Below the pieces are notes generated by a model. It did no database searches, was not told where the DNA came from, and worked only from the letters and a program-made list of their open reading frames with translations. A stretch of DNA of 64,000 nt, from positions 62,001 to 126,000 of the forward strand of contig JAEUOT010000046.1 in NCBI GenBank assembly GCA_016790705.1, in the 5' to 3' direction. Source of the stretch: Hydrogenophaga sp. GTDB lineage: Bacteria > Pseudomonadota > Gammaproteobacteria > Burkholderiales > Burkholderiaceae_C. Positions 18,001-32,257 of the stretch are shown in pieces. Numbering within the stretch: the first letter of the stretch is position 1; every line of letters starts with the position of its first letter. The translations under genes were made by a program, and so were the position numbers.

Positions 18001-21000
18001 GGTCAGTTCGACCTCGCCGGCGTCGTCGAGCTTGGCCTCGCACAGCAGCAGGCCGCGCGCGTCGCTCTTGCCCGAGCAGATGCTGCCCAGGTCTTTCGAT
18101 TCGGTCTTGTTGTCGTAGGTGTAGAAGCCACCGACCATGCGCTTGCGCGTGGTGGTCGTGGTCTTGACCGAGGCGCGCACCTCCAGCGGCACGTTGGCCG
18201 CCGGCTTGCCGTCCAGCGTGAGCGCCAGCGCCTGGAAGCGCGCCTGCTGCCGGGTCGAGACCCAGCCTTCGGTCTTGATGCCCGCGACCACGGCGGCGGG
18301 CCAGAGCGTGGTGACGTGGCGCAGGGTCTGGGTCTCGCCGTTGGGGTCGGCGTAGCTGGCCTCGATCAGCAACTGCTGCGGCGCGGTCACGGCCGGCAGG
18401 TCCTTGATCTCAGTGCGGCCGCGGCCGTTCTTGTCCAGCGTCAGCGGCAGCTTGTCGGCGACCAGCTTCTGCGCGGCATCGGCGCCGTCCTCGCCGTCGT
18501 CGTGTTCCTCATGCGCCCGGCTGGCGGCGCGCGGCGGGTCGAAGCTGAAACCTTCGTAGCCGGGGAAGGACAGCGACTTGCGGCGCATCAGCGCCGAGAC
18601 CTGGGTCGCGAGGTTGCCCGCACCGCCGCCCGAGAGGTAGCTCACCTGCAGGTCGACCGGCGTCGCCGTCGCCGCCACCAGCGGCTTCTTGTCGTTGGCG
18701 CTGAGCTGGCCCTGCAGCACCGGCAGCCGGAACTCCTCGACCCGGAACTGCGCGCTGTCCAGGATCTCGGTGCCCTGGCGGCCCAGCGACTGCGAGAGCT
18801 GCACGGTGTAGACGCCCAGCCGCGCCGAGGGCGGTATGGCGAATTCATTGGTCGCGCTCAGGCCGCCGGTCGGCGTCTTGCGCCAGGCCACGGGCTGGCG
18901 GAACTCCTGGCCGCTGCCCTGGTGGGTGATGATCAGTTCGCCGCTCTTGAGGTCGGGCACATGGAAGCCCTTCATGTCCTCGGTGCGCAGGAAGTGCTTC
19001 ATCGACAGCGTTTCGCCCGCGCGCAGCAGGGCACGGTCCAGCACCGTGTGGGCGCGCTGCGTGGCGCTGGAGAGGTCGCCGTTCGGCAGGTCGAAGCGCC
19101 AGGCCTCAATGCCGCGGTTCCAGTCGCTCCAGGTGAAGGCCAGGTCGTCGATGCCGTCGGGTGACTTCGCGCGCGCGCTGACGAACCAGGCGCCGCCGTA
19201 GTCGCCTTCGTCGGGTTCACCGTTCTGGCACACCGGCGCGCGGCCGGGGATGCCGTCGAGCTTCACGACCCCCTGCGCGTCGGTCTGGCCCTTGGCGACC
19301 AGCTTGCCGCGGCAGTCGGACACCTGCACCGCGGCGCCCGCGACCGGCTTGCCCTTGTCCAGCGTGGTGACCCAGGCCAGCGCGTTCTCGCGCCCGAGCT
19401 TGAAGTGCACGCCCAGGTTGGTCACCAGCGCCGAGCTGCGCACGTACATCGTGCGGCCCTCGCCGTGGCGCTCGTCGAGCAGCGAGCGGCCCAGCCGCGG
19501 CGAGGCGATCTCGACCACGTGGAAGCCCGGCTGCAGCGGAATGCCCACCACCTCCATCGGCCGCGGATCGCCCGCGGGCGCCTTGGGCAGGTCCAGCGGC
19601 TTCACGCCCGGCAGGCCCTGCAGCAGGCCGAGCATGCGCGACTCGACCCAGTCCTTGTTGTCCTTGTCGATCACCTTGGGCAGCGGCGTTTTGGTCCATT
19701 GCGCCGCCAGCTTGCGTTCGACCGTGCCCTCGTGGAAGGTGGTCACGCGCTGGTACCAGGCAATGATCTCGGCGTCGCTGGAGAGCTTGAGATCGCTGAC
19801 CTTGCTGCCGGACACCGCCAGGCCCAGGGCCTTGAGCTCGGGTTCGACGTTGCGCACCGTGATCGGCAGCAGTGCCGCGCCACCAGGTTCGGCCAGCCGC
19901 TCGACCACACCGAAGGGCGCGGCCGCGAACTTCACCAGCGGCGGCATCAGGCCGGTCGCCACCTTGAGCGGGAACTGGCCGACATTGGCCGGTGCGCGGC
20001 CCGAGGCGTCGACCAGGCCCTTGGGCAGCTCGACCGTGTAGCTGGCTTTCTCGGTCAGCGTGGGCGCGAAGTCCACGCCGTCGACCGCATCCTCGCCCTG
20101 CGCATCGTCTTCCAGCTTGGGCTTGAGCGCCTCGCCGCCGGCGGCGGGCTTGAGCCGGATCTCCAGCGCCTGCTTCGCGGTGACCGGGGCGTTGAAGCGC
20201 AGCGACATGCCACGCAGCGGCAGGCACGGCGACTGCGCGTTCTCGCGCTCGCAACTGAAGGTCACCTTGAAGGGTTCGCGCACGGTGAAGTTCAGGCGCT
20301 GGTCCTGCCGCGTCACCACGCCGCTGGGCGTGGCCACGCCCTTGCCCAGCACCAGCTTCACCTTGGCGGCGGGCGTGAGCTGGCGCTGGCAGGCCAGGGC
20401 CACGACCTGGTCGGCGGGCACATCCTTGCGGTCCCAGCCGCGCGCCTTGACCAACTGCTCACGCTCGGCGCCGGTGATCAGCCGGACCGCGATGCGTTCG
20501 CCCAGTCCGTCCATGCCGCACCAGGCGCTGGCCTGGACGCTCTCGGGCGCGACCGCGCCGTTGAAGCGCAGCAGGAAGTACTGGCCTTCCTCGATCGTCT
20601 GGCCGTCGGAGGGCGCGCTGTAGCGCACCGTCGGGCCGCCGGTCTCGAAGGCGAAGCGCTGCTTGCCGACCAGCGGTTTGCCGTCCAGCGCCACAAAACC
20701 CGGCGCCACCTGCACGCTGCACTTCACGCCCGGCGGCAGCGGCTGCTGGAAGTCGTAGACCCAGGAACGGTCGTTGACCCAGCGGCCCGTGCCGGCCGAG
20801 GCCTGGGGTTCGTTGCAGGTGAGTTGCAGTGGCGCCGCCGCGTTGGGGCTGCCGAAATTCACGGCGGAGGCGTCGAACTTCGCGACCACCTGCCGCACCT
20901 TGGCGACCTCGCCCTGCGGGCTCAGGTCGGTGATCTGGACCGCCATCGCCGTGCCGGTGGCCGCCAGCCAGACACCCGCGACCGCCATCGCCTTGCGCAC

Positions 21001-21012
21001 TCGGAACAACAT
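15031..21012 (-). CDS. Bacterial alpha-2-macroglobulin (YfhM-like protease trap)
   Basis: A 1993-residue periplasmic protein thought to trap foreign proteases that breach the outer membrane. The thioester motif CLEQ is intact (Cys about 1501, in YPFACLEQKTSKSIG). Before it are the MG-type domains and the bait region, with DREAYPVRGTAQVTIQAKLP at the start of a conserved MG segment; after it come the thioester helical domain and C-terminal receptor-like domain. A signal peptide ends GTAMA-VQ but has no lipobox Cys, unlike lipoprotein YfhM, so the protein may be soluble. GGAGGGGGA precedes the start. Confidence 0.93.
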   Translation of the reverse strand: MLFRVRKAMAVAGVWLAATGTAMAVQITDLSPQGEVAKVRQVVAKFDASAVNFGSPNAAAPLQLTCNEPQASAGTGRWVNDRSWVYDFQQPLPPGVKCSVQVAPGFVALDGKPLVGKQRFAFETGGPTVRYSAPSDGQTIEEGQYFLLRFNGAVAPESVQASAWCGMDGLGERIAVRLITGAEREQLVKARGWDRKDVPADQVVALACQRQLTPAAKVKLVLGKGVATPSGVVTRQDQRLNFTVREPFKVTFSCERENAQSPCLPLRGMSLRFNAPVTAKQALEIRLKPAAGGEALKPKLEDDAQGEDAVDGVDFAPTLTEKASYTVELPKGLVDASGRAPANVGQFPLKVATGLMPPLVKFAAAPFGVVERLAEPGGAALLPITVRNVEPELKALGLAVSGSKVSDLKLSSDAEIIAWYQRVTTFHEGTVERKLAAQWTKTPLPKVIDKDNKDWVESRMLGLLQGLPGVKPLDLPKAPAGDPRPMEVVGIPLQPGFHVVEIASPRLGRSLLDERHGEGRTMYVRSSALVTNLGVHFKLGRENALAWVTTLDKGKPVAGAAVQVSDCRGKLVAKGQTDAQGVVKLDGIPGRAPVCQNGEPDEGDYGGAWFVSARAKSPDGIDDLAFTWSDWNRGIEAWRFDLPNGDLSSATQRAHTVLDRALLRAGETLSMKHFLRTEDMKGFHVPDLKSGELIITHQGSGQEFRQPVAWRKTPTGGLSATNEFAIPPSARLGVYTVQLSQSLGRQGTEILDSAQFRVEEFRLPVLQGQLSANDKKPLVAATATPVDLQVSYLSGGGAGNLATQVSALMRRKSLSFPGYEGFSFDPPRAASRAHEEHDDGEDGADAAQKLVADKLPLTLDKNGRGRTEIKDLPAVTAPQQLLIEASYADPNGETQTLRHVTTLWPAAVVAGIKTEGWVSTRQQARFQALALTLDGKPAANVPLEVRASVKTTTTTRKRMVGGFYTYDNKTESKDLGSICSGKSDARGLLLCEAKLDDAGEVELTVVAKDGEGHAHQSAASVYVTRQGELWFGGEDHDRMDVVPEKKRYEPGETARLQVRMPFRFATALVSIEREGIIDTKVVQLNGEDPTIDLKVEPGWGPNVYVSVMALRGRLREVPWYSFFTWGYQAPREWWTAFWYEGKEYVAPTALVDLSKPAYRLGVAELKVGTAAHEIQVSVATDREAYPVRGTAQVTIQAKLPNGQPAANAEVALAVVDQALLELGPNDSWDLLAGMWQRRNWAVETSTAQMEIIGRRHYGRKAISAGGGGGHSPTRELFDTLLLWKPSVVLDAQGRATVSVPLNDAISSFQVVAIADSGPGLFGSGQTKFRATQDLQIISGLPPLVREGDRFMAQFSLRNTTAQPMKVNVSARATLVETPAQTVEIPAGETREVAWDVTAPVPLGLGRFEALLWEVTAQDQNGKARDAAKFSQRVLPAVPLTVRQATLSQLDGPLTVPLATPSDALTDAQGALRGGIRMSLQPTLAEGLPAVREWFVNYPFACLEQKTSKSIGLRDAKLWQTVLAQLPTYLDSDGLANYFPPRDGDRPSGSDTLTAYLLSATHEAAALDPAWTLPDASRAAMLRGLENFVTGKVERGFWSPRQDLNLRKLAAVEALSRYGKANARLLQSIEIAPNRWPTHAVIDWLNVLRRVTDIPKRDEKLAEANQILRARLSYQGTKLVFSTEADDQWWWLMQNGDTNTARLMLAVMDDPAWKDDMGRIASGFIGRQQRGTWSTTTANLWGGLALQKFSARFEAVPVTGSTRAALGATSAAVDWSKVSRVDPKAPVAAGFATVGTTKADPNVATGPWRNNSVTLAWPKDGASSLAVQHQGNGKPWVTLQALAATPLKAPMSAGYTVKKTITPVEQAVAGRYSKGDVLRITIEVNASTDMTWVVLSDPIPGGATLLGSGLGRDSEIATSGEKRSGNGWPVFEERSFEAFRSYYDHLSAGSFKTEYTVRLNNVGTFALPPTRIEAMYAPEVFGELPNAPVKVEAK

Positions 21013-21074: not shown

Positions 21075-22424
21075 TCATTCGAGCGACTTGAGCTTGCGGT
21101 AAAGCGAGCGTTCGCTGATGCCCAGTCTCGCGGCCAGTGCGGCGCGGTTGCCCTGGTGCGCGGCCACGACCGCGCGCAGCGCCTCGCGCTCGGCGGCGCG
21201 CAGGACGTCGCCCGTCGGCAGGGGCGTACCCGGCGCCGGCAGGGAGGCCGGCACCAGCGCGCCGGGCAGGCCCGCCCGTCCCGCCCGGGACGGCACGCGG
21301 CCGGTGGCGATCGCGTCCTCCACCTGCTGCTCGTCGATGAGATCCCCGTCACACAACAGTGCGGTGCGCTCCAGCAGGTTGCGCAGTTCGCGCACATTGC
21401 CCGGGAACGGCTGCGCTTCGAGCCGCGCCAACGCGGCCGGCGACAGGCTCAGTCGCCGTGGCGCCGCGACCCGCTCCAGCAGGGCCGGGGCGAGCAGGGC
21501 CATGTCGCCCTGCCGCTCGCGCAGCGGGGGCAACAGGATCGGGAAGGTCGAGAGCCGGTGGTAGAGGTCTTCGCGGAACCTGCCCTCCGCGATCAGGTGG
21601 TCCAGGTCGCGGTGCGTGGCGGAGACGACGCGGATGTCGGCGTGGCGCAGTTCGGTGCTGCCCACGCGCCGGTAGGTCCCCGTCTCCAGCAGGCGCAGCA
21701 GCTTGACCTGCATCGGCAGCGGAATGTCGCCGACCTCGTCGAGAAACAGCGTGCCACCGCTGGCGGCTTCGACCAGACCCCCTTTGGCGGCGGTCGCGCC
21801 GGTGAAGGCGCCGCGCTCGTGGCCGAACAGTTCCGACTCGAACAGGGTCTCGGGCAGGCTGGAGCAGTCCACCGCCACCAGCGGCTTGGTGGCTCTCGGA
21901 CTGGCTTCGTGGATGGCGCGGGCCACCAGTTCCTTGCCGGTGCCCGACTCGCCCAGCAGCAGCACGGTGGCGCGCGAGGGCGCGACACGGGCCACCAGCG
22001 AGAGCATGCGCTTGAAGGCCGGCGACCGGCCGATCAGCCCCTGGGCGGCGGGCTGGCCCTGTGCGACGCGCAAGGGCTCCATCTTCTCGACGTAGAACGC
22101 CGGTTCGCCGTCGTCGCCCGGCAGCGGGGACAGCTCGATGTTCACGTATTCCTCGCCCTGGCGCGTGTGGTGCAGGTGCAGCACGCGCTCGCGCTGGCCG
22201 GACAGGCGCGATTGCGCCAGGGGACACGACTCGCCCGCCTGGTCGCAGGGCACGGCGAAGTGGTGCGAGACCTCGTAGCAGCGCCGGCCGACCACGCTGC
22301 GTTCCGGGCTGAACTGGCGCCGGTAGGCCGCGTTGGCTGCCAGGATCCGGTACTGGGCGTCGAACAGGATGTGCGGCTCGGGCAGGCCTTCGAGGAAGGC
22401 GGTGAGTTCGGGCAGGGGTTTCAT
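21075..22424 (-). CDS. Sigma-54-dependent transcriptional activator with Cys-containing PAS domain
   Basis: A 449-residue enhancer-binding protein. It has an N-terminal PAS-type sensor (about 5-115) carrying three cysteines, C49-x10-C60-x6-C67. An AAA+ core follows with Walker A GESGTGKE (158-165), the sigma-54 contact loop GAFTGA (205-210) and Walker B GGTLFLDEVGD. The C-terminal Fis-type helix-turn-helix contains GNRAALAARLGISERSLYRKL. The start at 22424 has CAGGAG five bases upstream. It is divergent from cydP, whose sigma-54 promoter it most likely activates. Redox, NO or a metal cofactor could be sensed by the Cys cluster (inference). Confidence 0.9.
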   Translation of the reverse strand: MKPLPELTAFLEGLPEPHILFDAQYRILAANAAYRRQFSPERSVVGRRCYEVSHHFAVPCDQAGESCPLAQSRLSGQRERVLHLHHTRQGEEYVNIELSPLPGDDGEPAFYVEKMEPLRVAQGQPAAQGLIGRSPAFKRMLSLVARVAPSRATVLLLGESGTGKELVARAIHEASPRATKPLVAVDCSSLPETLFESELFGHERGAFTGATAAKGGLVEAASGGTLFLDEVGDIPLPMQVKLLRLLETGTYRRVGSTELRHADIRVVSATHRDLDHLIAEGRFREDLYHRLSTFPILLPPLRERQGDMALLAPALLERVAAPRRLSLSPAALARLEAQPFPGNVRELRNLLERTALLCDGDLIDEQQVEDAIATGRVPSRAGRAGLPGALVPASLPAPGTPLPTGDVLRAAEREALRAVVAAHQGNRAALAARLGISERSLYRKLKSLE

Positions 22425-22444: not shown

Positions 22445-22478
22445 GGCAGAGACTGACATTCTCTGCCATTTTTGGCAG
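22445..22478. promoter_or_regulatory. Probable activator-binding (UAS) sites upstream of cyd locus
   Basis: Three half-sites form overlapping inverted repeats: GGCAGAG (22445-22451) faces CTCTGCC (22461-22467), and CTGCCA (22463-22468) faces TGGCAG (22473-22478) across TTTT. They lie 85-120 bases upstream of the -24 element, the usual distance for a sigma-54 enhancer. Confidence 0.55.
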
Positions 22479-22561
22479 TGCCTGTCCGGTGGTCGTAGCT
22501 GCCGCCTTGCCTGTTGCGCGTCAGATGTTTGATTTGCAAAGACTTTTCCCTGCATTGCGCA

Positions 22562-22578
22562 CTGGCACGGTTCTTGGG
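22562..22578 (+). promoter_or_regulatory. Sigma-54 (-24/-12) promoter of the cyd/octaheme locus
   Basis: CTGGCACGGTTCTTGGG fits the YTGGCACG-N4-TTGCW consensus: the -24 half is perfect and the -12 half has TTGGG in place of TTGCA. The predicted transcript would start near 22590, at or just before the first candidate cydP start, which favours the internal ATG at 22605. Confidence 0.65.
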
Positions 22579-22604
22579 AAAGCAGGCCCATGCCGCCCGC
22601 CGCG

Positions 22605-22784
22605 ATGACACGCCCAACCCTTTCCCTGCCACGCAAGCTGGCCATCGTGTTGGTGATCAAGACGGTTTTTCTGGTTGGTCTGTGGTGGGGCTTCGTGCGG
22701 GACCTGCGTGCGCCGGTGGACACCGACAGCGCTGCCGCCCGCCTGCTGGGCCCGCCGCCAGCCTCCAACCCTTCCGAGGAGTGA
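22605..22784 (+). CDS. cydP: Cytochrome bd small subunit, CydP type
   Basis: A 59-residue single-span membrane protein (MTRPTLSLPRKLAIVLVIKT then VFLVGLWWGFVRDL). It has basic residues before one hydrophobic helix with a WWGF end, then a short Pro/Ala-rich tail. This shape and its position immediately before cydA match the CydP-type small subunit annotated with proteobacterial cytochrome bd oxidases. A start at 22590 would add five residues but sits at the predicted transcription start. The cydA Shine-Dalgarno (GAGGAG) lies in its last codons. Confidence 0.7.
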   Translation: MTRPTLSLPRKLAIVLVIKTVFLVGLWWGFVRDLRAPVDTDSAAARLLGPPPASNPSEE

Positions 22785-22790
22785 CCCTTG

Positions 22791-24353
22791 ATGTCTGACC
22801 AACTGGTTGACCTGTCGCGGCTGCAGTTCGCGGCGACGGCCCTGTACCACTTCCTCTTCGTGCCACTCACGCTGGGCATGGTCTGGCTGCTGGTCATCAT
22901 GGAGAGCGTCTACGTGATGACGGGCAACGTGGTCTGGAAGGACATGACCCGTTTCTGGGGCAAGCTTTTCGGCATCAACTTCGCGCTGGGCGTGACCACC
23001 GGCATCACGCTGGAATTCCAGTTCGGCACCAACTGGGCCTACTACTCGCACTACGTGGGCGACATCTTCGGGGCCCCGCTGGCCATCGAAGGCCTGATGG
23101 CCTTCTTCCTCGAATCGACCATGATCGGGCTGTTCTTCTTCGGCTGGGACCGCCTCTCGAAGACGCAGCACCTGATGGTGACGGTGCTGATGGCGCTGGG
23201 CACCAATCTGTCCGCGCTGTGGATCCTGATTGCCAACGGCTGGATGCAGAACCCGGTGGGCGCCGAGTTCAGCTTCCAGACCATGCGCATGGAAATGGTG
23301 AGCTTCTGGGCGGTGCTGTTCAACCCGGACGCTCAGGCCAAGTTTGTCCACACCGTCTCGGCCGGGTATGTCACCGGTGCGATGTTTGTGCTGTCGATTT
23401 CGAGCTGGTACCTGCTCAAGGGACGCGACATCGAGTTTGCCCGCCGCAGCTTCCGGGTGTCTGCCGCCTTCGGTCTGGCCTCGGTACTCAGCGTGATCGT
23501 GCTGGGGGACGAATCAGGCTACACCGTCGGTGAGGCGCAGCAGACCAAGATGGCCGCGCTCGAAGCCATGTGGGAGACCAAGCCTGCGCCGGCCGGGCTG
23601 ACGCTGATCGCCGGCATCAACGAAGCGGAACAGAAGAACGACTGGGAAATCGAGATTCCCTGGGTGATGGGTCTGATCGGCACGCGCTCGATCAGCCAGG
23701 AGATTCCGGGCATCCATGAGATCAAGCAGAAGAACCGTGTGCGCATCGAGAGCGGCATCCGCGCCGTGACTGCCCTCGAAGCCTTGCGCGCCAACCGCGA
23801 GGACGCAGCAGCCAAGGCTGTGTTCGAACAGCACAAGGCCGATCTCGGCTTTGGCCTCCTGCTCAAGAAATATGTGGTGGACGTGCGCCAGGCCACGCCG
23901 GAAATGATCCGGCAGGCGGTCGACAGCACGGTGCCGCGTGTGACGCCGATGTTCTGGGGCTTTCGCGTCATGGTCGGGCTTGGGTTTGCCATGTTGTTCC
24001 TGTTTGCTGCGTCCTTCTGGTGCACGCTTCAGTTGCAGTGCGGGCACCGTCGCTGGCTGCATCGATGGGCGTTGTGGATGCTGCCCGCCCCCTGGATCGC
24101 CTGCGAGCTGGGCTGGTTCGTGGCCGAGTACGGCCGCCAGCCCTGGACCATCTATGGCGTTCTGCCGACGCACCTGTCGGTCTCCACGCTCAGTGTGAAC
24201 AGCCTCTATGGCTCGCTGGCCGGTTTCATCGGCTTCTACACCGTGCTGCTGGTGGTCGAGATGGTCCTGATGGTCAAGTTCGCCCGCATGGGCCCCGGCA
24301 GTCTGGGTACCGGGCGCTATGCCAACGAGCCCGTTCACCTCGCACACGCCTGA
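22791..24353 (+). CDS. cydA: Cytochrome bd quinol oxidase subunit I
   Basis: Haem-bearing subunit of the high-affinity quinol:oxygen oxidoreductase in the inner membrane. At 520 residues it is E. coli-like, with a long Q-loop. Haem ligands are visible: His20 in ALYHFLFVPLT (b595), His in FVHTVSAGY (b558), and Met in FRVMVGLG. GDESGYTVGEAQQTK and MWETKPAPAG mark the quinol-binding Q-loop. The start at ATG 22791 has GAGGAG nine bases upstream. It lies 15 bases before cydB and is predicted to belong to the sigma-54-driven transcript. Confidence 0.97.
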   Translation: MSDQLVDLSRLQFAATALYHFLFVPLTLGMVWLLVIMESVYVMTGNVVWKDMTRFWGKLFGINFALGVTTGITLEFQFGTNWAYYSHYVGDIFGAPLAIEGLMAFFLESTMIGLFFFGWDRLSKTQHLMVTVLMALGTNLSALWILIANGWMQNPVGAEFSFQTMRMEMVSFWAVLFNPDAQAKFVHTVSAGYVTGAMFVLSISSWYLLKGRDIEFARRSFRVSAAFGLASVLSVIVLGDESGYTVGEAQQTKMAALEAMWETKPAPAGLTLIAGINEAEQKNDWEIEIPWVMGLIGTRSISQEIPGIHEIKQKNRVRIESGIRAVTALEALRANREDAAAKAVFEQHKADLGFGLLLKKYVVDVRQATPEMIRQAVDSTVPRVTPMFWGFRVMVGLGFAMLFLFAASFWCTLQLQCGHRRWLHRWALWMLPAPWIACELGWFVAEYGRQPWTIYGVLPTHLSVSTLSVNSLYGSLAGFIGFYTVLLVVEMVLMVKFARMGPGSLGTGRYANEPVHLAHA

Positions 24354-24368
24354 TCAACGGAGCGCAAC

Positions 24369-25505
24369 ATGTTCGACTACGAAACCCTCAAACTGGTCTG
24401 GTGGCTGCTGGTGGGCGTGCTGCTCGTCGGCTTTGCCGTGATGGACGGCCACGACATGGGCGTAGGCACGCTGCTGCCCTTCGTCGGTCGCAACGACGTC
24501 GAACGCCGCGTGGTGATCAACACCGTCGGCCCGCACTGGGACGGCAACCAGGTCTGGTTCATCACCGGCGGCGGCGCCATCTTCGCCGCTTGGCCGCTGG
24601 TCTATGCCACCGCGTTCAGCGGTTTCTACTGGGCCATGCTCGCCGTGCTGTGGGCGCTGTTCTTCCGTCCGGTGGGGTTCGACTACCGCAGCAAGATCCA
24701 CAACGCCACTTGGCGAAGCACCTGGGACTGGGGCCTGTTCGTCGGCGGCTTCGTGCCCCCTGTGATCTTCGGTGTGGCCTTCGGCAACCTGTTCCAGGGC
24801 GTTCCCTTCCAGTTCGACGCCTTCCTGGTGCCCACCTACACCGGCAGCTTCTGGGCCCTGCTCAACCCGTTCGCCCTGCTGGCCGGTGTGGTCAGCAGCA
24901 CCATGATCACGCTGCAGGGCGCGACCTATCTGGCGCACCGCACCGAAGGCATGGTGCAGGCGCGCACGATCAAGGCAGGAACCGGCGCGGCACTGGTCAT
25001 GGTGCTCGGCTTCATTGCGGCCGGTGTCTGGCTGCAGTCCATCGACGGTTACCGCATGGCGTCGGTGGTGAACCCTGCAGCCCTTCCGGATCCGCTGGCC
25101 AAGACCGTGGTGCGCGAGGCCGGTGCCTGGATGGCGAACTACGCCGCGTTGCCCGCGCTGTGGCTGCTGCCTGTCCTGGGTGTGCTCGGCGCGCTGAGCG
25201 CTGTGGGCCTGATGCGCGCAGGCCGCACGCTCAGCGCCTTCGTCGCATCCTCGCTGGCCACCACCGGTGTCATCGGCACCGCGGGCGTAAGCCTGTTCCC
25301 CTTTGTCATGCCGTCGAGCACCCAGTTGCAGGCCAGCCTGACGGTGTGGGACAGCGTTTCCAGCCACCTGACCCTGGCCATCATGTTCTGGGCCACGCTG
25401 ATCTTCATGCCCCTGATCGTGCTGTACACGTCCTGGGCCTACCGGGTGATGCGCGGCAAGGTGACGGCCGCCTACATCCGCGAGAACGAACACGGCGCGT
25501 ATTGA
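24369..25505 (+). CDS. cydB: Cytochrome bd quinol oxidase subunit II
   Basis: A 378-residue polytopic partner of CydA, stabilising the haem-containing oxidase in the inner membrane. The start MFDYETLKLVWWLLVGVLL and the early motif GFAVMDGHDMGVG are diagnostic of CydB. GPHWDGNQVWFITGGGAIFAAWP follows, and the C-terminus ends YIRENEHGAY. CGGAG precedes the start. Its own cydX is not next to it: the expected small subunit gene lies about 3.1 kb further on, after a cytochrome c/cytochrome b/Rieske module. Confidence 0.97.
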   Translation: MFDYETLKLVWWLLVGVLLVGFAVMDGHDMGVGTLLPFVGRNDVERRVVINTVGPHWDGNQVWFITGGGAIFAAWPLVYATAFSGFYWAMLAVLWALFFRPVGFDYRSKIHNATWRSTWDWGLFVGGFVPPVIFGVAFGNLFQGVPFQFDAFLVPTYTGSFWALLNPFALLAGVVSSTMITLQGATYLAHRTEGMVQARTIKAGTGAALVMVLGFIAAGVWLQSIDGYRMASVVNPAALPDPLAKTVVREAGAWMANYAALPALWLLPVLGVLGALSAVGLMRAGRTLSAFVASSLATTGVIGTAGVSLFPFVMPSSTQLQASLTVWDSVSSHLTLAIMFWATLIFMPLIVLYTSWAYRVMRGKVTAAYIRENEHGAY

Positions 25506-25581
25506 CAGGCGTCGCCTGATCCCTTTGCACGCGAGAGACCGGAACACGCATTCCATCCACCCGAGAGCAGGAGACAAGCCA

Positions 25582-27291
25582 ATGACCCGTCCCACAAACA
25601 AGCCACCGCCGATGTCCATGCGAAGCTTGTCCGTCACGCTGGGTGTTGCCGTGTGGATGGCGAGCGTGTGTGTGCCGGTGACGGCGCAGCCACAGGCAGC
25701 GCAGCCCACGTCATCTTCACCGGCCGCGCCAGGCGTGTGGAACAAATCGACGGCCGACCACAGCAAGTTCAAGGAACTGCAAGGCCGGTTCGCAAGCGGT
25801 TCAGAGGTGACCAAGGCCTGCCTGAGCTGCCACACCGAGGCCGGCAAACAGGTCATGGGGACGCGCCATTGGACCTGGGAATACACGAATCCGGACACCG
25901 GGCAGACGCTGGGCAAGAAGACCATGATCAACAGCTTCTGCATCGGAGACCGGTCCAATGAGGCGTTCTGCCAGTCGTGCCACATCGGGTACGGATGGAA
26001 AGACAACAAGTTCGATTTTCACGACGAAACCAAGGTCGACTGTCTGGCGTGTCACAACACCGGTGGCTACAAAAAGCCGCCCGGCATGGCCGGAGAGGTG
26101 CCCACCACGCGCATGGAACGGCCCGACCTGCCGGCGGGTTCGGGTCAGTTCCTCGACCCCGTCGACCTGGCCAATGTGGCCCAGCATGTGAGCAGGACCC
26201 GCAGTGCCAACTGCGGAACCTGCCACTACAACGGCGGTGGTGGTGACGGGGTGAAGCACGGCGACCTTGACTCGTCGCTGAACAAGGCCGAGAAGTCGCT
26301 GGACGTGCACATGGCCGCCAAGGACAAGGGTGGCGCAGGCTTCACCTGTTCGACCTGTCACCAGTCGGACGGCCATAAACTGGCGGGCAGCCGGATCAGC
26401 ATGACAGCCTCCGACCCGCACGGCCCCATCATGCGCGGCGACACCGTGCATGCCGGCCGGAACGCCGCCACCTGCCAGAGCTGTCACGGCGACAAACCCC
26501 ACAAGCAACCCGCTCTTGCCGTGGGGCTGCTGAACAACCACACCAGCAAGCTGGCCTGCCAGAGTTGCCATATCCCCGCCTTCGCGCGTGGCGGGGTGTC
26601 GACCAAGATGGCCTGGGACTGGTCGGCGGCCGGCAAGCTTACCTCGGAGGGCAAGCCCATTCAGACCAAGGACGAGCACGGTCACGTGGTCTATGACAGT
26701 CGCAAAGGGGCCTTCACCCTGGGGCAGAACGTTGTGCCCGAGTACATCTGGTTCAACGGGAAGGTCCGCTACACGACGCAGGACATGAAGATCGATCCGG
26801 CCCAGGTGCTCAAGATCAACGAGTTTCTGGGCAGCCCCGACGACCCGAAGGCACGCATCTGGCCAGTCAAGCGCTTTCACAGCACCCAGCCTTATGACAC
26901 GGTGAATCGCCAGCTGCTGGTGCCGCACACCGCGACGCCCGACGACTCGGCGTTCTGGTTCAACTTCGACTGGGACAAGGCGCTCCAGGCGGGCGCCACC
27001 GCAACCGGTCAGCCCTACAGCGGTCAGCACGGCTTCGTGAAGAGCGAGATGCTCTGGCCGATCACCCATATGGTCGCGCCTGCAAAGGACGCCGTGGCGT
27101 GCGCGTCCTGCCACAGCGCCTCCGACAAGAGCCGTCTGGGCACATTGCCCGGAGTCTATCTCCCCGGGCGGGATCACAACCCCTGGCTGGATCGCCTGGG
27201 GTGGCTGGCTGTCGGCGGTGCGCTGCTGGGGGTGCTGGTGCACGCCACCGCTCGCCTGGTCACCCGCCGTCGCAACACCGGAGCGCACTGA
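25582..27291 (+). CDS. Octaheme c-type cytochrome, tetrathionate reductase (Otr) family
   Basis: A 569-residue exported multihaem protein. Eight CxxCH haem sites are at residues 80, 130, 154, 211, 256, 298, 326 and 507. The long gap before the last haem, the many non-motif His and Lys, and the overall length fit the Otr family; the Shewanella member reduces tetrathionate, nitrite and hydroxylamine in vitro. A signal peptide is at about 12-35, and one C-terminal helix (about 539-558) plus basic RLVTRRR would anchor it to the membrane facing the periplasm. CAGGAG lies upstream of the start. The cytochrome b gene follows after one base. Confidence 0.88.
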   Translation: MTRPTNKPPPMSMRSLSVTLGVAVWMASVCVPVTAQPQAAQPTSSSPAAPGVWNKSTADHSKFKELQGRFASGSEVTKACLSCHTEAGKQVMGTRHWTWEYTNPDTGQTLGKKTMINSFCIGDRSNEAFCQSCHIGYGWKDNKFDFHDETKVDCLACHNTGGYKKPPGMAGEVPTTRMERPDLPAGSGQFLDPVDLANVAQHVSRTRSANCGTCHYNGGGGDGVKHGDLDSSLNKAEKSLDVHMAAKDKGGAGFTCSTCHQSDGHKLAGSRISMTASDPHGPIMRGDTVHAGRNAATCQSCHGDKPHKQPALAVGLLNNHTSKLACQSCHIPAFARGGVSTKMAWDWSAAGKLTSEGKPIQTKDEHGHVVYDSRKGAFTLGQNVVPEYIWFNGKVRYTTQDMKIDPAQVLKINEFLGSPDDPKARIWPVKRFHSTQPYDTVNRQLLVPHTATPDDSAFWFNFDWDKALQAGATATGQPYSGQHGFVKSEMLWPITHMVAPAKDAVACASCHSASDKSRLGTLPGVYLPGRDHNPWLDRLGWLAVGGALLGVLVHATARLVTRRRNTGAH

Positions 27292-27292
27292 C

Positions 27293-27985
27293 ATGGAACA
27301 AACCACCACTGTTCCGGCCGCCGACGCAAAGCAGCCCGGCCGCATTTATATCTACAAGCGGTACGAGCGCTTCTGGCACTGGTCACAGGCCCTGTTGATC
27401 ATCACCATGCTGATCAGCGGCTTCGAGGTGCACGGCAGCTACCACCTGCTGGGTTTCGAAGTCGCGGTCCGGCTCCATACGCTTGCGGCCTGGGCGTTGC
27501 TCACGCTATGGGCGTTCACCATCTTCTGGCAGTTCACCACTGGCGAGTGGCGCCAGTACCTGCCCACCCACAAGAAGGTGGTGGCCATGGCGCTTTACTA
27601 CGGCTGGGGCATGTTTCGTGGCGCACCCCACCCGTTCAGGAAGACGGTGCAGAAGAAGCACAACCCGCTGCAGCGCCTGGCCTATCTGGCCTTGCTGGCA
27701 ATGATCTCGCCACTGATTTGGGGCTCGGGCCTGCTCTATCTGTTTCGTGCGTTCTGGCCAGCCCTTGGGATCGACCGCTGGCTGGCGCTCGAATGGGTGG
27801 CCTGGGCACACACCGGGGGTGCCTTCCTGATGCTTGCCTTCTTCTTTGTGCACGTTTACCTGACGACAACCGGTCATACGCTCACGGCCCACATCAAGGC
27901 CATGCTCACTGGCTGGGAAGATGAGCATGAAGGAGACGAACCGGTATCGCCCGTCGCCTCTGCCTCAAACAGGGTCGCCCACTGA
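27293..27985 (+). CDS. Membrane cytochrome b (thiosulfate/formate-type quinol subunit)
   Basis: A 230-residue protein with four hydrophobic helices (about 31-50, 58-80, 127-150, 168-192). Candidate haem b ligands are His29 (RFWHWSQ), His62 (RLHTLAAW), His173 (WAHTGG) and His187 (FVHVYLTTTGHT). This is the Ni/Fe-hydrogenase, formate dehydrogenase and thiosulfate reductase b-type family, which exchanges electrons with the quinone pool. It starts one base after the octaheme gene, so it is the obvious membrane electron donor or acceptor for that protein. The C-terminus is an acidic cytoplasmic tail. Confidence 0.85.
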   Translation: MEQTTTVPAADAKQPGRIYIYKRYERFWHWSQALLIITMLISGFEVHGSYHLLGFEVAVRLHTLAAWALLTLWAFTIFWQFTTGEWRQYLPTHKKVVAMALYYGWGMFRGAPHPFRKTVQKKHNPLQRLAYLALLAMISPLIWGSGLLYLFRAFWPALGIDRWLALEWVAWAHTGGAFLMLAFFFVHVYLTTTGHTLTAHIKAMLTGWEDEHEGDEPVSPVASASNRVAH

Positions 27986-27996
27986 AGGAGTCTGAA

Positions 27997-28617
27997 ATGT
28001 CCGCTGAATCGCTCCTGCCCGTTCCCGCTGAATGCGACATCGATCCCGAGCGTCGCACCTGGCTACTGGCCACGGGAGCCATGGGCGCCGCGGCGGTCAC
28101 TGCCGTGGCGGTCCCACTGGTGTCCAGCTTTGCGCCAAGCGAGCGGGCCAAGGCACTTGGTGCTGCCGTGTCCATGGACCCGCTCACGGTGGCGCCCGGC
28201 GAGATCAAGACCGTGGAGTGGCGTGGTCAGCCGGTCTGGGTGATGCGCCGCACACCCGACATGCTGGCGGCACTTGAGCACGTGGAGGGCCTGGCCGATC
28301 CGGCATCCGAGGTCAAACAGCAGCCGCCGTATGCCACCAACCCCCATCGCTCGATCAAGCCTGAGCTGCTGGTGGCCGTGGGCATCTGCACCCACCTGGG
28401 CTGCTCGCCAGTGAACCTGCCACAGGGAACGACCAACACCAGCGTGCCGGCCGACTGGAAAGGGGGCTTTTTCTGCCCTTGTCACGGCTCCACCTTCGAT
28501 CTCGCGGGCCGTGTGTTCAAGAACAAACCGGCACCCACCAACCTGGTCGTGCCGCCCCACCAGTACCTTGCCGACGGCACGCTGCTGATCGGTGAGGACG
28601 GGAGCGGAGCGACCTGA
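27997..28617 (+). CDS. Rieske [2Fe-2S] protein, bc1-type, without bc1 partners
   Basis: A 206-residue Rieske protein with cluster-binding loops CTHLGC (131-136) and CPCHGS (160-165), both complete with the disulfide Cys, like the ubiquinol-cytochrome c reductase subunit. The N-terminus carries ERRTWLLATG (twin Arg 19-20) and one helix, as in a Tat-inserted anchor. TGAAGGAG precedes the start. No petB or petC is nearby; it sits between cytochrome b and cydX. It probably passes electrons from quinol to the octaheme protein, in place of a classical bc1 complex (inference). Confidence 0.9.
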   Translation: MSAESLLPVPAECDIDPERRTWLLATGAMGAAAVTAVAVPLVSSFAPSERAKALGAAVSMDPLTVAPGEIKTVEWRGQPVWVMRRTPDMLAALEHVEGLADPASEVKQQPPYATNPHRSIKPELLVAVGICTHLGCSPVNLPQGTTNTSVPADWKGGFFCPCHGSTFDLAGRVFKNKPAPTNLVVPPHQYLADGTLLIGEDGSGAT

Positions 28618-28643
28618 GCGTCTTTTTGCAACAGGAGAACATC

Positions 28644-28760
28644 ATGTGGTATTTCGCCTGGGTCCTCGGCGTCGGCTTTGCCGTGCTGCTGGCCATCCTC
28701 AACGCCATGTGGGGCGAAACCGAAGAGGGCCGCAAGGCAGCGCACGGAGGCACGAAGTGA
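28644..28760 (+). CDS. cydX: Cytochrome bd small subunit CydX
   Basis: A 38-residue single-helix protein (MWYFAWVLGVGFAVLLAILN, AMWGETEEG...). The MWYFAW start and LNAMW are the CydX hallmarks; CydX is required for stable, active cytochrome bd. CAGGAG is placed eight bases before the ATG. Too short for most gene finders. It is displaced from cydAB by three genes. Its stop overlaps the next start (GTGA). Confidence 0.9.
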   Translation: MWYFAWVLGVGFAVLLAILNAMWGETEEGRKAAHGGTK

Positions 28761-29053
28761 GCGCGACACCTGTCAGTGTCCCGGCTGCGCCGGGTCGCGT
28801 GAGCCTGCCGAGCCTGACGGTCGCCGTTGCCATCATGCTGACTGGCAGTGTCTACCCGCTGCTGTTCGCCGATGCGCACGGCCGTGCCGACCATGGTCTG
28901 GCCATGGCCCTGTTCTGGGCTATGAGCGCGGGACTGGTGCGCGGCGTGGGCTTCGTGCCGCACATGGCGCTGTGGCGGATGCTGTTCTCCGGCCCTGCCT
29001 GCGCAGTGGCCCTGGGTCTGGCCGCGGCCATCCGTTGGGGAGGGCTGGACTGA
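28757..29053 (+). CDS. Cyd operon YbgE-like membrane protein
   Basis: A 98-residue protein with about three hydrophobic helices (VAVAIMLTGSVYPLLF, LAMALFWAMSAGLV, MLFSGPACAVALGLAAA). Size, helix pattern and position right after cydX match the YbgE family found at the end of cyd operons, whose function is unknown. The GTG start overlaps the cydX stop, and its own stop overlaps the next ATG (TGATG), so all three are coupled. GVGFVPHMALWRML is the most family-like stretch. Confidence 0.75.
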   Translation: MSATPVSVPAAPGRVSLPSLTVAVAIMLTGSVYPLLFADAHGRADHGLAMALFWAMSAGLVRGVGFVPHMALWRMLFSGPACAVALGLAAAIRWGGLD

Positions 29054-29691
29054 TGTTGCACATGCTCAACGACGAATGCAGTGGCGAGCTGAGCTACCTG
29101 CTGGCCGACCCAGATGCGCGCGAGGCTGTGTTGGTGGATCCGCATGGACGCGATGTGCCTGTGTGGCAGGCCCTTCTCGATGAGCGCCAGCTGCGCCTGC
29201 GCTGGGTGCTGCGCACCCATCAGCACGACGCGCTACTGCCTGGCGAGTTCGCTCGCATCGCCCGTCTGGGTGTCCCGGTGGTGCAGGGCCAGGCGTGCGT
29301 CGGAGTACAGACTGTTGCCGATGGTGACTTGCTGCCCTTCGGCAACGAGTTCCTGCGAACGCTGCGCACCCCCGGCCATACCGCAGACTGCCTTAGCTTC
29401 GCCTGGCGCGACCGGGTGTTCTGTGGAGGCCTGCTGGCGGTGGACGCGTGCCCGCACCAGCCGTGTCCGGCCGATGCCGCTGCGCTGTGGGACAGCGTCA
29501 CCCAGCGCATCTTCATCCTGTCCGACGAGACACTTCTCTACAACGGTCACGACCCGCGGGCGCGGGCGGTCAGTACGGTGATGGAGCAGCGTCGGTGGCA
29601 CCCCTATTTCAGTCGACTGACTCGCGACGAGTTTCTTGCGCGCATGTCGGCGCTTCAGTCTGCGGCGGTCGATCACGATGCCACCGTTTGA
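29053..29691 (+). CDS. Metallo-beta-lactamase-fold protein with degenerate metal site
   Basis: A 212-residue protein resembling the ETHE1/persulfide dioxygenase branch of the MBL fold. Some ligands remain: His56 and His58 (RTHQHDAL), His109 (TPGHTADC) and His166 (YNGHDPRA). However, the usual H-x-H-x-D-H reads H-Q-H-D-A-L, and the Asp of the GDTL-type motif is Gly126 (FCGGLL). The iron ligand set expected for persulfide dioxygenase is therefore incomplete. It may bind metal differently, or be a non-catalytic relative. The start overlaps the YbgE-like stop. A sulfur role is suggested only by family and neighbours. Confidence 0.75.
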   Translation: MLHMLNDECSGELSYLLADPDAREAVLVDPHGRDVPVWQALLDERQLRLRWVLRTHQHDALLPGEFARIARLGVPVVQGQACVGVQTVADGDLLPFGNEFLRTLRTPGHTADCLSFAWRDRVFCGGLLAVDACPHQPCPADAAALWDSVTQRIFILSDETLLYNGHDPRARAVSTVMEQRRWHPYFSRLTRDEFLARMSALQSAAVDHDATV

Positions 29692-29730
29692 CGACAGTGG
29701 TCGGCACCCCGACATGACCAAGGAGGTTCC

Positions 29731-30867
29731 ATGAGCAACCCCGTACGCATCACCATCATCGGCGCCGGCTTTGGCGCGCTGTCGGCCGTGCGCGAGCTGC
29801 GCGCGCGTGACCGGGACGCCGAGATCACGCTGATCGCTCCGCGTGCCGAACTGCACTACCTTCCCGGCATCATCTGGATTCCCTCGGGCTTGCGCTCTCG
29901 CGAACAACTGGTCGTGCCGCTGACCAACTTCTTTGCGCGCATGCGGGTGCGACATGTGGCGGCGGAAGTGACGGGCGTGAGCGAAAACGGGCGTCTGGTG
30001 CAGACCACGTCTGGCGAGGTGGCCAATGATGCACTGGTCATCGCCAGCGGTGGTCGCTTCATCAAGAAGCTGCCGGGCATCGAGCACGCCATCACGCCCT
30101 GCGAAGGCATTGCCGCTGCCGAAAAAATCCGCGACCGACTGCGCGCCATGACGGGCGGCACCATCGCGGTCGGGTTCGCCGGAAACCCCAACGAACCCAG
30201 TGCGGTGCGCGGCGGACCCATGTTCGAATTTCTGTTCGGCATCGACGAGCAGCTCAGGCGCGAAGGCCGGCGCCACCGCTTCAAACTGGTGTTTTTCAAT
30301 CCGTCAAAAGAGCCTGGAAACCGGTTGGGGCCCAAGGCGGTGAAGCACCTGTTGGCCGAGATGGAGCGGCGCGGCATCCACACCCACCTGGGCCACAAGA
30401 TGCAGCGCTTCGAGGCCGACAAGGTTGTCACCGAAGGGGGCGAGATTCCGGCCGACCTGATCCTGTTCATGCCCGGCATGACCGGCAATGCCTGGTTCGA
30501 CCAGACCGCGCTGGCCCGCTCCCCTGGCGGTCTGCTGCAGGCGGACGCGCAGTGTCGCGTGACCGGCAGCGAGCACGTTTACGTGGTGGGCGACTCGGGC
30601 AGCTTCCCGGGGCCTGACTGGATGCCCAAGCAGGCACACATGGCCGACCTGCAGGCCGCTGCCGCTGCGGAGAACCTGCTGGCGGGCCTGCGCGGCCAGA
30701 CGCCGCAAGCGAGCTTCAAGGTCGAGCTCGTTTGCATCATTGACGCGATCGACCACGGCACGCTGGTGTTCCGCAACCCCCGACGGCAGATCATCCTGCC
30801 GTCCACGCGCCTGTTTCACTGGGCCAAGCGCATGTTTGAAAAACATTACCTGAAGCAGTACCGATGA
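29731..30867 (+). CDS. SQR-like FAD-dependent oxidoreductase
   Basis: A 378-residue flavoprotein of the sulfide:quinone oxidoreductase/flavocytochrome c sulfide dehydrogenase-like family. The N-terminal dinucleotide site is IIGAGFGALSAVREL, with a second FAD motif at HVYVVGDSG. The cysteines are 124 (TPCEGIAAAE), 275 and 335 (ELVCIIDAIDHG); 124 and 335 sit where the redox disulfide Cys of SQR are expected. The C-terminus ends with an amphipathic, basic segment (FHWAKRMFEKHYLKQYR) of the kind that touches the membrane. AAGGAGG precedes the ATG. Sulfide oxidation into the quinone pool is plausible. Confidence 0.82.
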   Translation: MSNPVRITIIGAGFGALSAVRELRARDRDAEITLIAPRAELHYLPGIIWIPSGLRSREQLVVPLTNFFARMRVRHVAAEVTGVSENGRLVQTTSGEVANDALVIASGGRFIKKLPGIEHAITPCEGIAAAEKIRDRLRAMTGGTIAVGFAGNPNEPSAVRGGPMFEFLFGIDEQLRREGRRHRFKLVFFNPSKEPGNRLGPKAVKHLLAEMERRGIHTHLGHKMQRFEADKVVTEGGEIPADLILFMPGMTGNAWFDQTALARSPGGLLQADAQCRVTGSEHVYVVGDSGSFPGPDWMPKQAHMADLQAAAAAENLLAGLRGQTPQASFKVELVCIIDAIDHGTLVFRNPRRQIILPSTRLFHWAKRMFEKHYLKQYR

Positions 30868-31316
30868 CATCCGACACCGCAACCCCCTCCGTCTACGAAG
30901 CCCTGGGCGGCGCCGATGGCCTGCACCGCCTGGTGGACCGCTTTTACGAACTCATGGACGAGCTGCCCGAGGCCTATGCCGCGCGGCGCATCCACCCCGA
31001 AAGCCTGGCGGGCGCCAATGAGAGCCTGTTCGAATACCTCTCGGGCTGGTTCGGCGGACCCAACCTCTACATCGAGAAAAGGGGCCACCCGCGCCTGCGC
31101 ATGCGCCACCTGCCCTACACCATCGGTACCGCCGAGCGGGACGAGTGGATGCTGTGCATGCGCACCGCGCTGACGGAACAGGTGGCAGACGAGTCCCTTC
31201 GCGCCGGCCTGCTGCAGGCGTTCACGCAGATGGCCGATCACATGGTCAACACAGACGGTCGCGCCGGCTGTGGCCACGACCACACAGACCGAACCCGCAA
31301 CTGCGAGACCGCATGA
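30864..31316 (+). CDS. Group II truncated haemoglobin
   Basis: A 150-residue globin of the trHbO-like group II type. YEALGGADGLHRLVDRFYEL gives the first helices; LSGWFGGPNLYIEKRGHPRLRMRH supplies the proximal haem His (H75 by comparison with trHbO numbering); and RDEWMLCM carries the Trp typical of group II. The C-terminal tail is His/Cys-rich (GCGHDH). Such globins bind O2 and NO; some protect respiration from NO. It overlaps the flavoprotein gene at its start and the next gene at its stop (ATGA both times). Confidence 0.88.
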   Translation: MTSDTATPSVYEALGGADGLHRLVDRFYELMDELPEAYAARRIHPESLAGANESLFEYLSGWFGGPNLYIEKRGHPRLRMRHLPYTIGTAERDEWMLCMRTALTEQVADESLRAGLLQAFTQMADHMVNTDGRAGCGHDHTDRTRNCETA

Positions 31317-31777
31317 ACAGGATCCTTCTGGCCCTTGCCCTGGCCTGTCCGCTCTGGGCCCTGGCCGGCCCGGTCGAACCCGGTCAGCCACTGCCGGCCC
31401 TGTCACTGAAGAACCAGCACGACCAGGAGTGGTACGTCCACGCTGACACCCGGCTGGTGATATTTGCTGCCGGACGCAAGGCATCCAACCTCGCCATGGC
31501 CGTGCTCGGGCCTCAGCCCAAGGGCTTTCTGGCCGCCCGCCATGCCCTGTATCTGGCCGACATGAGCCGGATGCCTGGCTTCATCACCCGCACCTTCGCG
31601 CTGCCTTCGCTGAAGGAACAGCCCTTCGAGGTCGGTGTGGTGCTGGACGACAAGACCCTGGCCGGCTGGCCGCGCCAGGACGATGCCCTTACGCTCATCC
31701 GGCTGGACAACGGCCGCGTGGTCAGCCACGAATACGCCACCACCGAAGTTCAGCTCAAGGCCGCGCTCGGCCTTTGA
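31313..31777 (+). CDS. Exported thioredoxin-fold-like protein
   Basis: A 154-residue protein with a signal peptide ending LWALA-GP. The mature start PGQPLPALSLKNQHDQEWYV is like that of peroxiredoxin, TlpA and YtfJ-type thioredoxin folds, and LVIFAAGRKASN occupies the place of the usual CxxC, so no redox Cys pair remains. The periplasmic function is unknown. It is translationally coupled to the globin gene (ATGA) and lies 18 bases before the thioesterase gene. Confidence 0.6.
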   Translation: MNRILLALALACPLWALAGPVEPGQPLPALSLKNQHDQEWYVHADTRLVIFAAGRKASNLAMAVLGPQPKGFLAARHALYLADMSRMPGFITRTFALPSLKEQPFEVGVVLDDKTLAGWPRQDDALTLIRLDNGRVVSHEYATTEVQLKAALGL

Positions 31778-31795
31778 TTCCCAAAGGAAAACCCC

Positions 31796-32257
31796 ATGGA
31801 CGCCTTTCAAGACCACTACCCCGACAACGTCGCGCACTGCTACGGTTGCGGCAACCGGAACGAGCATGGTCACCAGATCAAGACCGCTTGGGAGGGCGAC
31901 GAGACCGTCACGCGCTTCCGCCCCGAACCTTTCCACACCTCGGTGCCCGGCTTTGCTTACGGCGGCCTGATCGCCTCGCTGATCGACTGCCACAGCACGG
32001 GCACCGCCGCGGCGGCCATGTACCGACAGGCTGGACGTGGCATGGATTCGCTGCCGGCGTTCCGTTTTGTGACCGGCTCGTTGCACGTGGACTTTCTCAA
32101 GCCGACGCCCATTGATGTCGAACTGGTGATCCGCGGCCGCGTGAAGGAGATCAAGGGCCGCAAGGTGATCGTCGAGACGGCGGTGTGGGCCGGTGAGTTG
32201 GTCACCGCTCGTGGCGAGGTTGTCGCCGTGCAGATGCCTGAAAGTTTCGGCGCCTGA
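31796..32257 (+). CDS. PaaI-family hotdog thioesterase
   Basis: A 153-residue hotdog-fold protein. An N-terminal CYGCGNRNEHGHQIK is seen in PaaI-like thioesterases, with GFAYGGLIASLIDCHSTGTAA forming the hotdog helix and LHVDFLKPTPIDVEL the following strand. The expected activity is hydrolysis of acyl-CoA thioesters. AAAGGA precedes the start. It is the last gene of the cyd/octaheme run; its link to respiration is unclear. Confidence 0.85.
   Translation: MDAFQDHYPDNVAHCYGCGNRNEHGHQIKTAWEGDETVTRFRPEPFHTSVPGFAYGGLIASLIDCHSTGTAAAAMYRQAGRGMDSLPAFRFVTGSLHVDFLKPTPIDVELVIRGRVKEIKGRKVIVETAVWAGELVTARGEVVAVQMPESFGA

Follow-up and report, generated by a model that had tools for sequence, protein, structure and literature searches.

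A candidate FisR-type sigma-54 regulon joining cytochrome bd, an octaheme cytochrome and a second Rieske protein in Hydrogenophaga

Introduction

FisR is a sigma-54-dependent activator whose gene stands divergent from pdo-sqr, the genes for persulfide dioxygenase (PDO) and sulfide:quinone oxidoreductase (SQR), in Cupriavidus pinatubonensis and Acinetobacter baumannii. Cupriavidus FisR is reported to form a Cys53-Cys64 tetrasulfide with sulfane sulfur (PMC9495516), and sensing by FisR has been described as using three conserved cysteines (PMC9774590). In A. baumannii, FisR is reported to activate a pdo1-sqr-tauE operon, and sulfide to raise cydAB (PMC7315123). Here we describe a locus of the genus Hydrogenophaga in which a gene for a FisR-like activator faces an operon headed by cytochrome bd, which also includes genes for an octaheme cytochrome c, a cytochrome b and a Rieske protein. 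It lies in a 64 kb stretch of DNA (G000:C69:62001-126000), hereafter the window, from an assembly of 71 contigs that is 84.75% complete.

Several parts of this locus have described counterparts. Cytochrome bd-I of proteobacteria is encoded by a cydAB-X-ybgE operon, and the bd oxidases of Escherichia coli are reported to be sulfide-resistant, the bo3 oxidase having a half-maximal inhibitory concentration of 1.1 uM (PMC4815019). The Shewanella octaheme cytochrome Otr is reported to reduce nitrite, hydroxylamine and tetrathionate (PMC4484225), and in our own reading the physiological substrate of Otr-type cytochromes is unsettled. Extra Rieske proteins, encoded by a second bc1-type gene outside the bc1 cluster, are reported to be functionally redundant in Rubrivivax gelatinosus and Rhodospirillum rubrum (PMC6256036). 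No title or abstract opening describing the present gene combination was found in the literature searched, which excluded most subscription papers.

The genes of the cluster recur together in shuffled order in relatives, with recurring -24/-12 sites, and genomic comparison supports their co-regulation well. We consider it probable, with moderate confidence, that these genes make up a sigma-54 regulon of FisR type serving respiration under sulfide or sulfane-sulfur stress; what we infer from these comparisons is its signal, its link to quinone, the role of the Rieske protein, and which substrate the octaheme cytochrome acts on and in which direction.

Results

The regulator gene (21075..22424, minus strand) is divergent from a cluster of thirteen genes and encodes the domains of a FisR protein: PAS_4, AAA+ with a GAFTGA motif, and a Fis-type helix-turn-helix. 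Its Cys49, Cys60 and Cys67 have the spacing of Cys53/Cys64/Cys71 of FisR, as compared via the Cupriavidus metallidurans orthologue and the published Cys53 and Cys64; Cys71, seen at position 71 in that orthologue, is what we take to be the third cysteine of the FisR triad. The C. metallidurans protein is 51.7% identical, has cysteines at 53, 64 and 71 if its start is MDRP, and is encoded divergently from an MBL-fold (metallo-beta-lactamase-fold) gene with PDO motifs, judged by eye, and an SQR-type gene that scores below the model cut-off. The triad is kept in all 22 full-length regulator orthologues (two more partial matches, 37-39% identical, do not extend to this part and are not among the 22) and in 20 of 20 FisR-like loci sampled across the class. 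Against the NorR model NF003451 the regulator scored 306 bits, short of the cut-off of 476. The window's genome encodes 12 strong sigma-54 activators, of which 10 are readable, and the CYEVSHH form occurs only in the cluster regulator, one further motif match (L267) looking like chance. Judged by its sequence the regulator is related to FisR, and sulfide or sulfane sulfur is therefore its probable cue.

The company kept by such regulators is similar across the class. In 15 of 20 loci (the 21 best places in genomes other than the window's, less G646), genes for an SQR-type flavoprotein or for cydAB/cioAB are found no more than 2 kb from the regulator; seven of these 15 were called SQR-type from NCBIfam SQR_III matches, all below cut-off, and the seven flavoproteins that were checked have all three SQR cysteines. 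Neither kind of gene was found in the other five loci: L309 reaches a contig end and holds globin and SLAC1 genes, and L313, L317, L318 and L319 had nothing long enough to test. In a Pseudoalteromonas record the orthologue is divergent from cydP, from a gene of 903 residues annotated as cydB, and from cydX and ybgE. Within the genus, the regulator (E < 1e-140) was found in 22 of 60 genomes, comprising 9/9 with the octaheme gene and 13/51 without it (P = 3.4e-5, a value that is valid only if the genomes are independent, which they are not). It is on a different contig from the cluster in three of these genomes (G002, G047 and G050, clusters L126, L125 and L127), where the cydP match is nonetheless preceded, at 24-27 bases, by a -24/-12 site, and on another, short contig in G041.

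The thirteen genes of the original prediction (22590-32257) are all present, on one strand and in the order given there, behind a single -24/-12 site at 22563. Eleven of them have a Pfam or NCBIfam match fitting their given names, and their spacing, which ranges from 4-base overlaps to a maximum of 76 bases, makes a single transcript plausible. The predicted sigma-54 promoter (TGGCACGGTTCTTGGG, 22563..22578, plus strand) has the motif TGGCACG-N4-TTGG, of which this is the sole match in 64 kb; since 0.25 are expected, it is not significant alone and was rejected as evidence by itself. A palindrome, CTGCCA-N4-TGGCAG (CTGCCATTTTTGGCAG, 22463..22478, plus strand), stands 100 bases before the -24 element and is a candidate upstream activator site; it too is a sole match, with 0.01 expected for a pattern that was taken from the window itself. 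A terminator-like hairpin between the divergent genes (22445-22467) overlaps this candidate site. The arrangement is of the FisR type, an activator divergent from a target operon with a -24/-12 promoter, and both motifs recur in relatives. Of 28 intergenic stretches, 10 carry a form of the palindrome that keeps at least 10 of its 12 letters and a 4-base spacer and stands upstream of the -24 element by 99-102 bases; in the other 18 the palindrome is at other distances (82-440 bases), has other spacers, is weak or missing, or the -24 element itself could not be made out. The final letters of the -12 element are mostly TTGG, TTGA or TTGT, not TTGC.

The octaheme gene is present in 9 of the 60 genus genomes, the window's included. 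CydA of at least 87% identity occurs in the window's genome and seven others, all of them octaheme-bearing, and the next CydA match is 61% identical; the ninth octaheme genome (G041) has a contig-end piece only and no close CydA. TIGR04315 matches occur in 41 of 399 genomes of the order, 35 of them above cut-off. Among named genomes, where the best 80 of 389 octaheme relatives were kept, the fetched stretch holds a FisR-like gene in 20 loci, cydA in 21, both in 16 and either in 25, which we call linked; a Rieske gene is present in 16/25 linked loci vs 4/55 others, two of these four (L131 and L135) being contig-cut pieces of the same cluster kind. Full flanks are available in only 44/80 loci and all these linkage counts are lower bounds. 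On a tree of octaheme proteins (85 rows, the window and 84 loci, with L110 and L113 left out; quick search, SH-aLRT support only) the linked state requires 10 changes, at least five of which rest on well supported branches. Contigs labelled Propionibacterium and Phycisphaerae (L150, L168) carry octaheme genes that fall inside Thauera-like and Casimicrobiaceae-like branches, and so may be misbinned.

Where the genes are separated, the same kind of promoter is often found before each part. L144, L158 and L165 have one -24/-12 site before cyd and another before Rieske-octaheme; L149 and L154 have one site each before Rieske, cyd and MBL-octaheme; and L132 has a site before cyd and a second before the octaheme gene. 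Denitromonas and Pseudothauera are among the relatives whose cyd, Rieske and octaheme units stand apart. In linked loci 31 of 49 unit-first genes have a site (cydP 11/11, cydA 7/10, Rieske 6/10, MBL 4/5, octaheme 3/13), and some of the 13 octaheme 'units' probably lie inside operons. The figure for unlinked octaheme loci is 2/59 (octaheme 1/55, MBL 1/2, Rieske 0/2). The background is 0.0043 sites per 450 bases, and unit-first genes account for 33 of the 62 sites found. Comparison of gene order, which had been suggested as a check on whether the genes form one module, thus finds them reordered but not randomly scattered, and such separate promoters as exist are of the same kind. This recurrence across genera, the sites often kept by separated bd, Rieske and octaheme units, and the conserved regulator together give good support to the claim of a single co-regulated respiratory module.

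The cytochrome bd genes comprise cydP (22590..22784; NF045611 above cut-off), a bd-I-like cydA (22788..24353; PF01654, starting at TTG 22788 or ATG 22791) and cydB (24369..25505; TIGR00203), followed at a distance by cydX (28644..28760; TIGR02106) and a ybgE-like gene (28757..29053; PF09600), all on the plus strand, as are the genes described below. Family matches to CydA, CydB and CydX mark the oxidase as bd-I, and cydA is the sole PF01654 match in the assembly, at its 84.75% completeness. Every member of the proteobacterial operon is therefore here, cydP included; the locus differs in its sigma-54/FisR-like control and in the three genes inserted between cydB and cydX. That the octaheme, cytochrome b and Rieske genes split the cyd operon in this way was correctly predicted for the locus, although the arrangement is not unique. 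The octaheme gene lies between cydB and cydX in 9 of 19 named loci having both (L121-L125, L127, L130, L133 and L136; L121, from H. taeniospiralis CCUG 15921, has the split order of the window), and it does not split them in the other 10, on which ground the split was rejected as the main functional feature; it is probably one arrangement among several, with no functional meaning of its own. No Rieske match was found in the cydB-cydX gap of L127, L130, L133 and L136, where the octaheme and cytochrome b genes are present, so the Rieske gene either joined the gap at a later stage or has disappeared from it. No cyd genes were found in the stretch fetched for L129 (H. aromaticivorans), where the regulator is followed first by the octaheme gene.

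The octaheme protein (25582..27291) belongs to the Otr family, with eight CXXCH motifs and a TIGR04315 score of 580.6 bits (cut-off 375). Its residues 66-514 of 569 align with Shewanella Otr (PDB 1SP3; E 1.2e-95), and Otr Lys153, presumably the lysine ligand at the active-site heme, falls on K225 when counted along this alignment. Its C-terminal hydrophobic segment is a common feature, a strongly hydrophobic segment following the last heme motif in 67 of 78 readable frames from 84 loci. The next gene encodes a cytochrome b561-type subunit (27293..27985; PF01292) with His29, His62, His173 and His187, four histidines that are invariant in 10/10 aligned sequences. Of the 80 named loci, 75 have a gene of this type no more than 400 bases beyond the octaheme gene, and in the remaining five the contig ends 2-130 bases past the octaheme match; in 32 unlinked octaheme loci it is the only widely shared neighbour. 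By these features the pair seems to be an Otr variant anchored in the membrane and linked to quinone. It shares with Otr of S. oneidensis the eight heme motifs, the Lys153 equivalent and overall homology, and is distinguished by its C-terminal segment and dedicated cytochrome b gene, Shewanella Otr being described as periplasmic and reached from CymA through STC (PMC4484225). In L186, L188 and L191 the octaheme and cytochrome b genes are followed by genes grouping with those of a small c-type cytochrome (a weak match), a multi-rhodanese protein and a transporter of the YeeE/YedE type, as judged from one Pfam-scanned example of each.

The Rieske protein (27997..28617) is of the bc1 type, scoring 199.4 bits against TIGR01416 (cut-off 97.4) with all four ligands in place, and its gene adjoins the cytochrome b561-type gene and cydX rather than petB or petC. 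At least one Rieske match was found in 59 of the 60 genus genomes, and in L226, the one genus genome checked, petB (Pfam) comes after the other-type Rieske gene. In a Rieske tree the cluster proteins fall outside the group of nine other-type sequences; those of Burkholderiales all sit within a supported group of 28 rows that also takes in rows of unproven linkage, those of Rhodocyclales form a separate group, and L141 and L143 stand apart. A Tyr-to-Phe replacement was rejected as a sign of lowered potential, the genus's other Rieske proteins having the same Phe. As to bc1 in the window's genome, no PF00032 match and a single Rieske match, the window's own, were found in an assembly 84.75% complete.

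Rieske and regulator genes also occur together away from any octaheme gene. We surveyed 20 further genus stretches with a regulator gene, a second-type Rieske gene or both, and found the octaheme gene in none of them. The regulator is present in 16, eight of these have a Rieske gene, and five of the eight also have a CIO-type bd gene. In L238, L239 and L240 the order reads regulator // cioA-cioB-Rieske-MBL, then either the SQR-like gene or DUF6858 and SBF transporter genes, then globin-thioredoxin-thioesterase, which is the window's downstream order minus the octaheme gene. The Rieske gene is therefore a frequent but not a constant partner, and the octaheme gene is not needed. The original prediction had placed the Rieske protein in a module with the octaheme cytochrome; these eight loci show that such a connection is not required. 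The parallel with Rubrivivax and Rhodospirillum lies in a second bc1-type gene outside the bc1 cluster, and the difference in its being often accompanied here by a FisR-like regulator and a bd oxidase. The simplest reading of the sequences would make the second Rieske protein a spare bc1 subunit. In L238, L239, L240 and L241 the regulator stands beside a CIO-type bd oxidase, with CydA 33-45% identical in pieces, and a Rieske gene in an octaheme-free setting.

Five genes complete the cluster. The MBL-fold protein (29053..29691) has no Pfam match and NCBIfam matches below cut-off only; its nearest relatives are solved persulfide dioxygenases, whose Fe ligands we take to be His79, His135 and Asp154 in ETHE1 numbering. 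The place of Asp154 is occupied by Gly, and among 21 relatives by Asp in 11, Gly in nine and Ala in one; an active PDO was accordingly not accepted. The flavoprotein (29731..30867; Pyr_redox_2) has SQR as its nearest relative, but of the three SQR cysteines, which we take to be C124/C156/C347 in Aquifex aeolicus numbering, the second is missing both here and in three near orthologues, and a true SQR was not accepted. In many relatives this slot is occupied by a DUF6858 gene and an SBF/ACR3-like transporter gene (e.g. L122, 13875-15560), and some relative loci also carry a SLAC1/TehA-type transporter. A truncated globin (30864..31316; Bac_globin) is followed by a predicted exported thioredoxin-fold protein (31313..31777) and a hotdog thioesterase (31796..32257; 4HBT). 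The thioredoxin-like protein has no CXXC and no Pfam or NCBIfam match was found; its AlphaFold2 model (mean pLDDT 86.4) resembles peroxiredoxin and ResA-like structures. It has no redox cysteines and is conserved in the cluster.

Outside the cluster, a 1993-residue bacterial alpha-2-macroglobulin-like protein is encoded immediately downstream of the regulator gene (15031-21012, minus strand). DUF4395 genes are found in the window (11981-12757) and in L122 (4421-5185), where the gene adjoins the regulator.

Discussion

The likeness of the locus to the FisR regulons of C. pinatubonensis and A. baumannii extends to the divergent sigma-54 activator, the triad spacing (per the C. metallidurans orthologue), the -24/-12 promoter and the presence of PDO-like and SQR-like genes, whereas the MBL and SQR-like proteins here are without catalytic residues. 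By analogy with FisR, the Cys triad would let the activator sense sulfane sulfur; from the palindrome, its candidate binding site some 100 bases upstream, it would drive sigma-54 transcription at the -24/-12 site. CydPABX would then assume O2 reduction, heme-copper oxidases being blocked by sulfide, as in E. coli. The octaheme cytochrome and cytochrome b, whose genes are paired, may form a quinone-linked oxidoreductase acting in either direction on a sulfur compound of the periplasm, for example tetrathionate/thiosulfate or polysulfide. The second Rieske protein could be an alternative bc1 subunit produced under the same conditions, and the PDO-like, SQR-like, globin, thioredoxin-fold and thioesterase genes may be an older, FisR-linked accessory set, in which the MBL and SQR-like proteins of this lineage would have lost catalytic residues and probably changed function.

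Several observations weigh against a sulfide-stress regulon. Octaheme-free regulator loci are common (13 of the 22 genus genomes having the regulator), eight of the 16 further regulator loci are without a Rieske gene, and four second-type Rieske loci are without the regulator. The FisR of A. baumannii is reported to be sulfide-responsive without the triad (PMC7315123), for which reason the triad is not decisive. The residue losses of the MBL protein and flavoprotein leave no intact sulfide-oxidising enzyme at the locus, and elsewhere in the assembly (84.75% complete) there are three SQR matches, weak ones of 25-29% identity. Octaheme genes that come first in a unit have a promoter site in just three of 13 linked cases, the site pattern was fixed after the first sites had been viewed, and relatedness inflates all counts. 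Finally, sulfur-related Pfam matches were obtained for just four of ten scanned neighbours of unlinked octaheme genes (rhodanese in L176, from Stutzerimonas, and in L191, a YeeE/YedE-type transporter in L188 and glutaredoxin in L175), the other six being JmjC, YchJ-like, DUF302, TerB-like, a weak c-type cytochrome and one without a match. Genes like the four occur in a few more unlinked loci, and such neighbours support sulfur chemistry weakly. The residue losses count against a simple sulfide-oxidation operon, but they fit a re-used set descended from one.

The original prediction had an N/S-oxide branch, and of its two halves the regulator favours sulfur-compound chemistry. A nitrosative-stress or N-oxide module, with bd and globin providing tolerance of NO, the octaheme cytochrome reducing nitrite or hydroxylamine and the regulator answering NO, would account for the truncated globin and bd oxidase of the cluster; the reported activity of Shewanella Otr on nitrite and hydroxylamine (PMC4484225) speaks for it and against a sulfur substrate alike. 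Against such a module stands the regulator, which falls well short of NorR, possesses the FisR cysteines and has relatives that adjoin SQR-type or PDO-like genes; judged on the regulator and its relatives, the module is the less favoured reading and unlikely. Slightly less likely again is a low-O2 or redox-stress operon, with the triad as a general thiol-redox switch and a gene set that lowers O2 and maintains electron flow. Bd oxidases are typical of low O2, and AhpC/TSA peroxiredoxin genes lie near some relatives, but the recurrent pairing of regulator and SQR-type genes across the class would be left unexplained. Gene order is also highly variable, and the changes required on the octaheme tree might be read as a neighbourhood without joint function, assembled by chance or block transfer; we find this very improbable, given that members recur in different orders, that many units keep their -24/-12 sites and that the regulator accompanies the octaheme gene in every genus genome that has it.

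Returning to a FisR-type regulon for respiration under sulfide stress, a more specific form of it can be put forward tentatively, as a possibility that we think doubtful in its full extent. Burkholderiales and Rhodocyclales would possess a sulfide-inducible alternative chain under one FisR-like activator, in which octaheme-cytochrome b connects the quinone pool in either direction with periplasmic sulfane sulfur or polythionates, the Rieske protein retools bc1, and CydAB, or CioAB in sister species, provides a sulfide-proof exit. If true, this chain would assign a physiological role to the Otr family. With the octaheme-cytochrome b pair in a regulon that has a sensor of the sulfide type, the Otr substrate becomes a question that can be tested in cultured strains (H. 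taeniospiralis, Denitromonas). Likely control by FisR would also reach beyond sulfide-oxidising enzymes to the terminal oxidase, and perhaps to a Rieske subunit of bc1.

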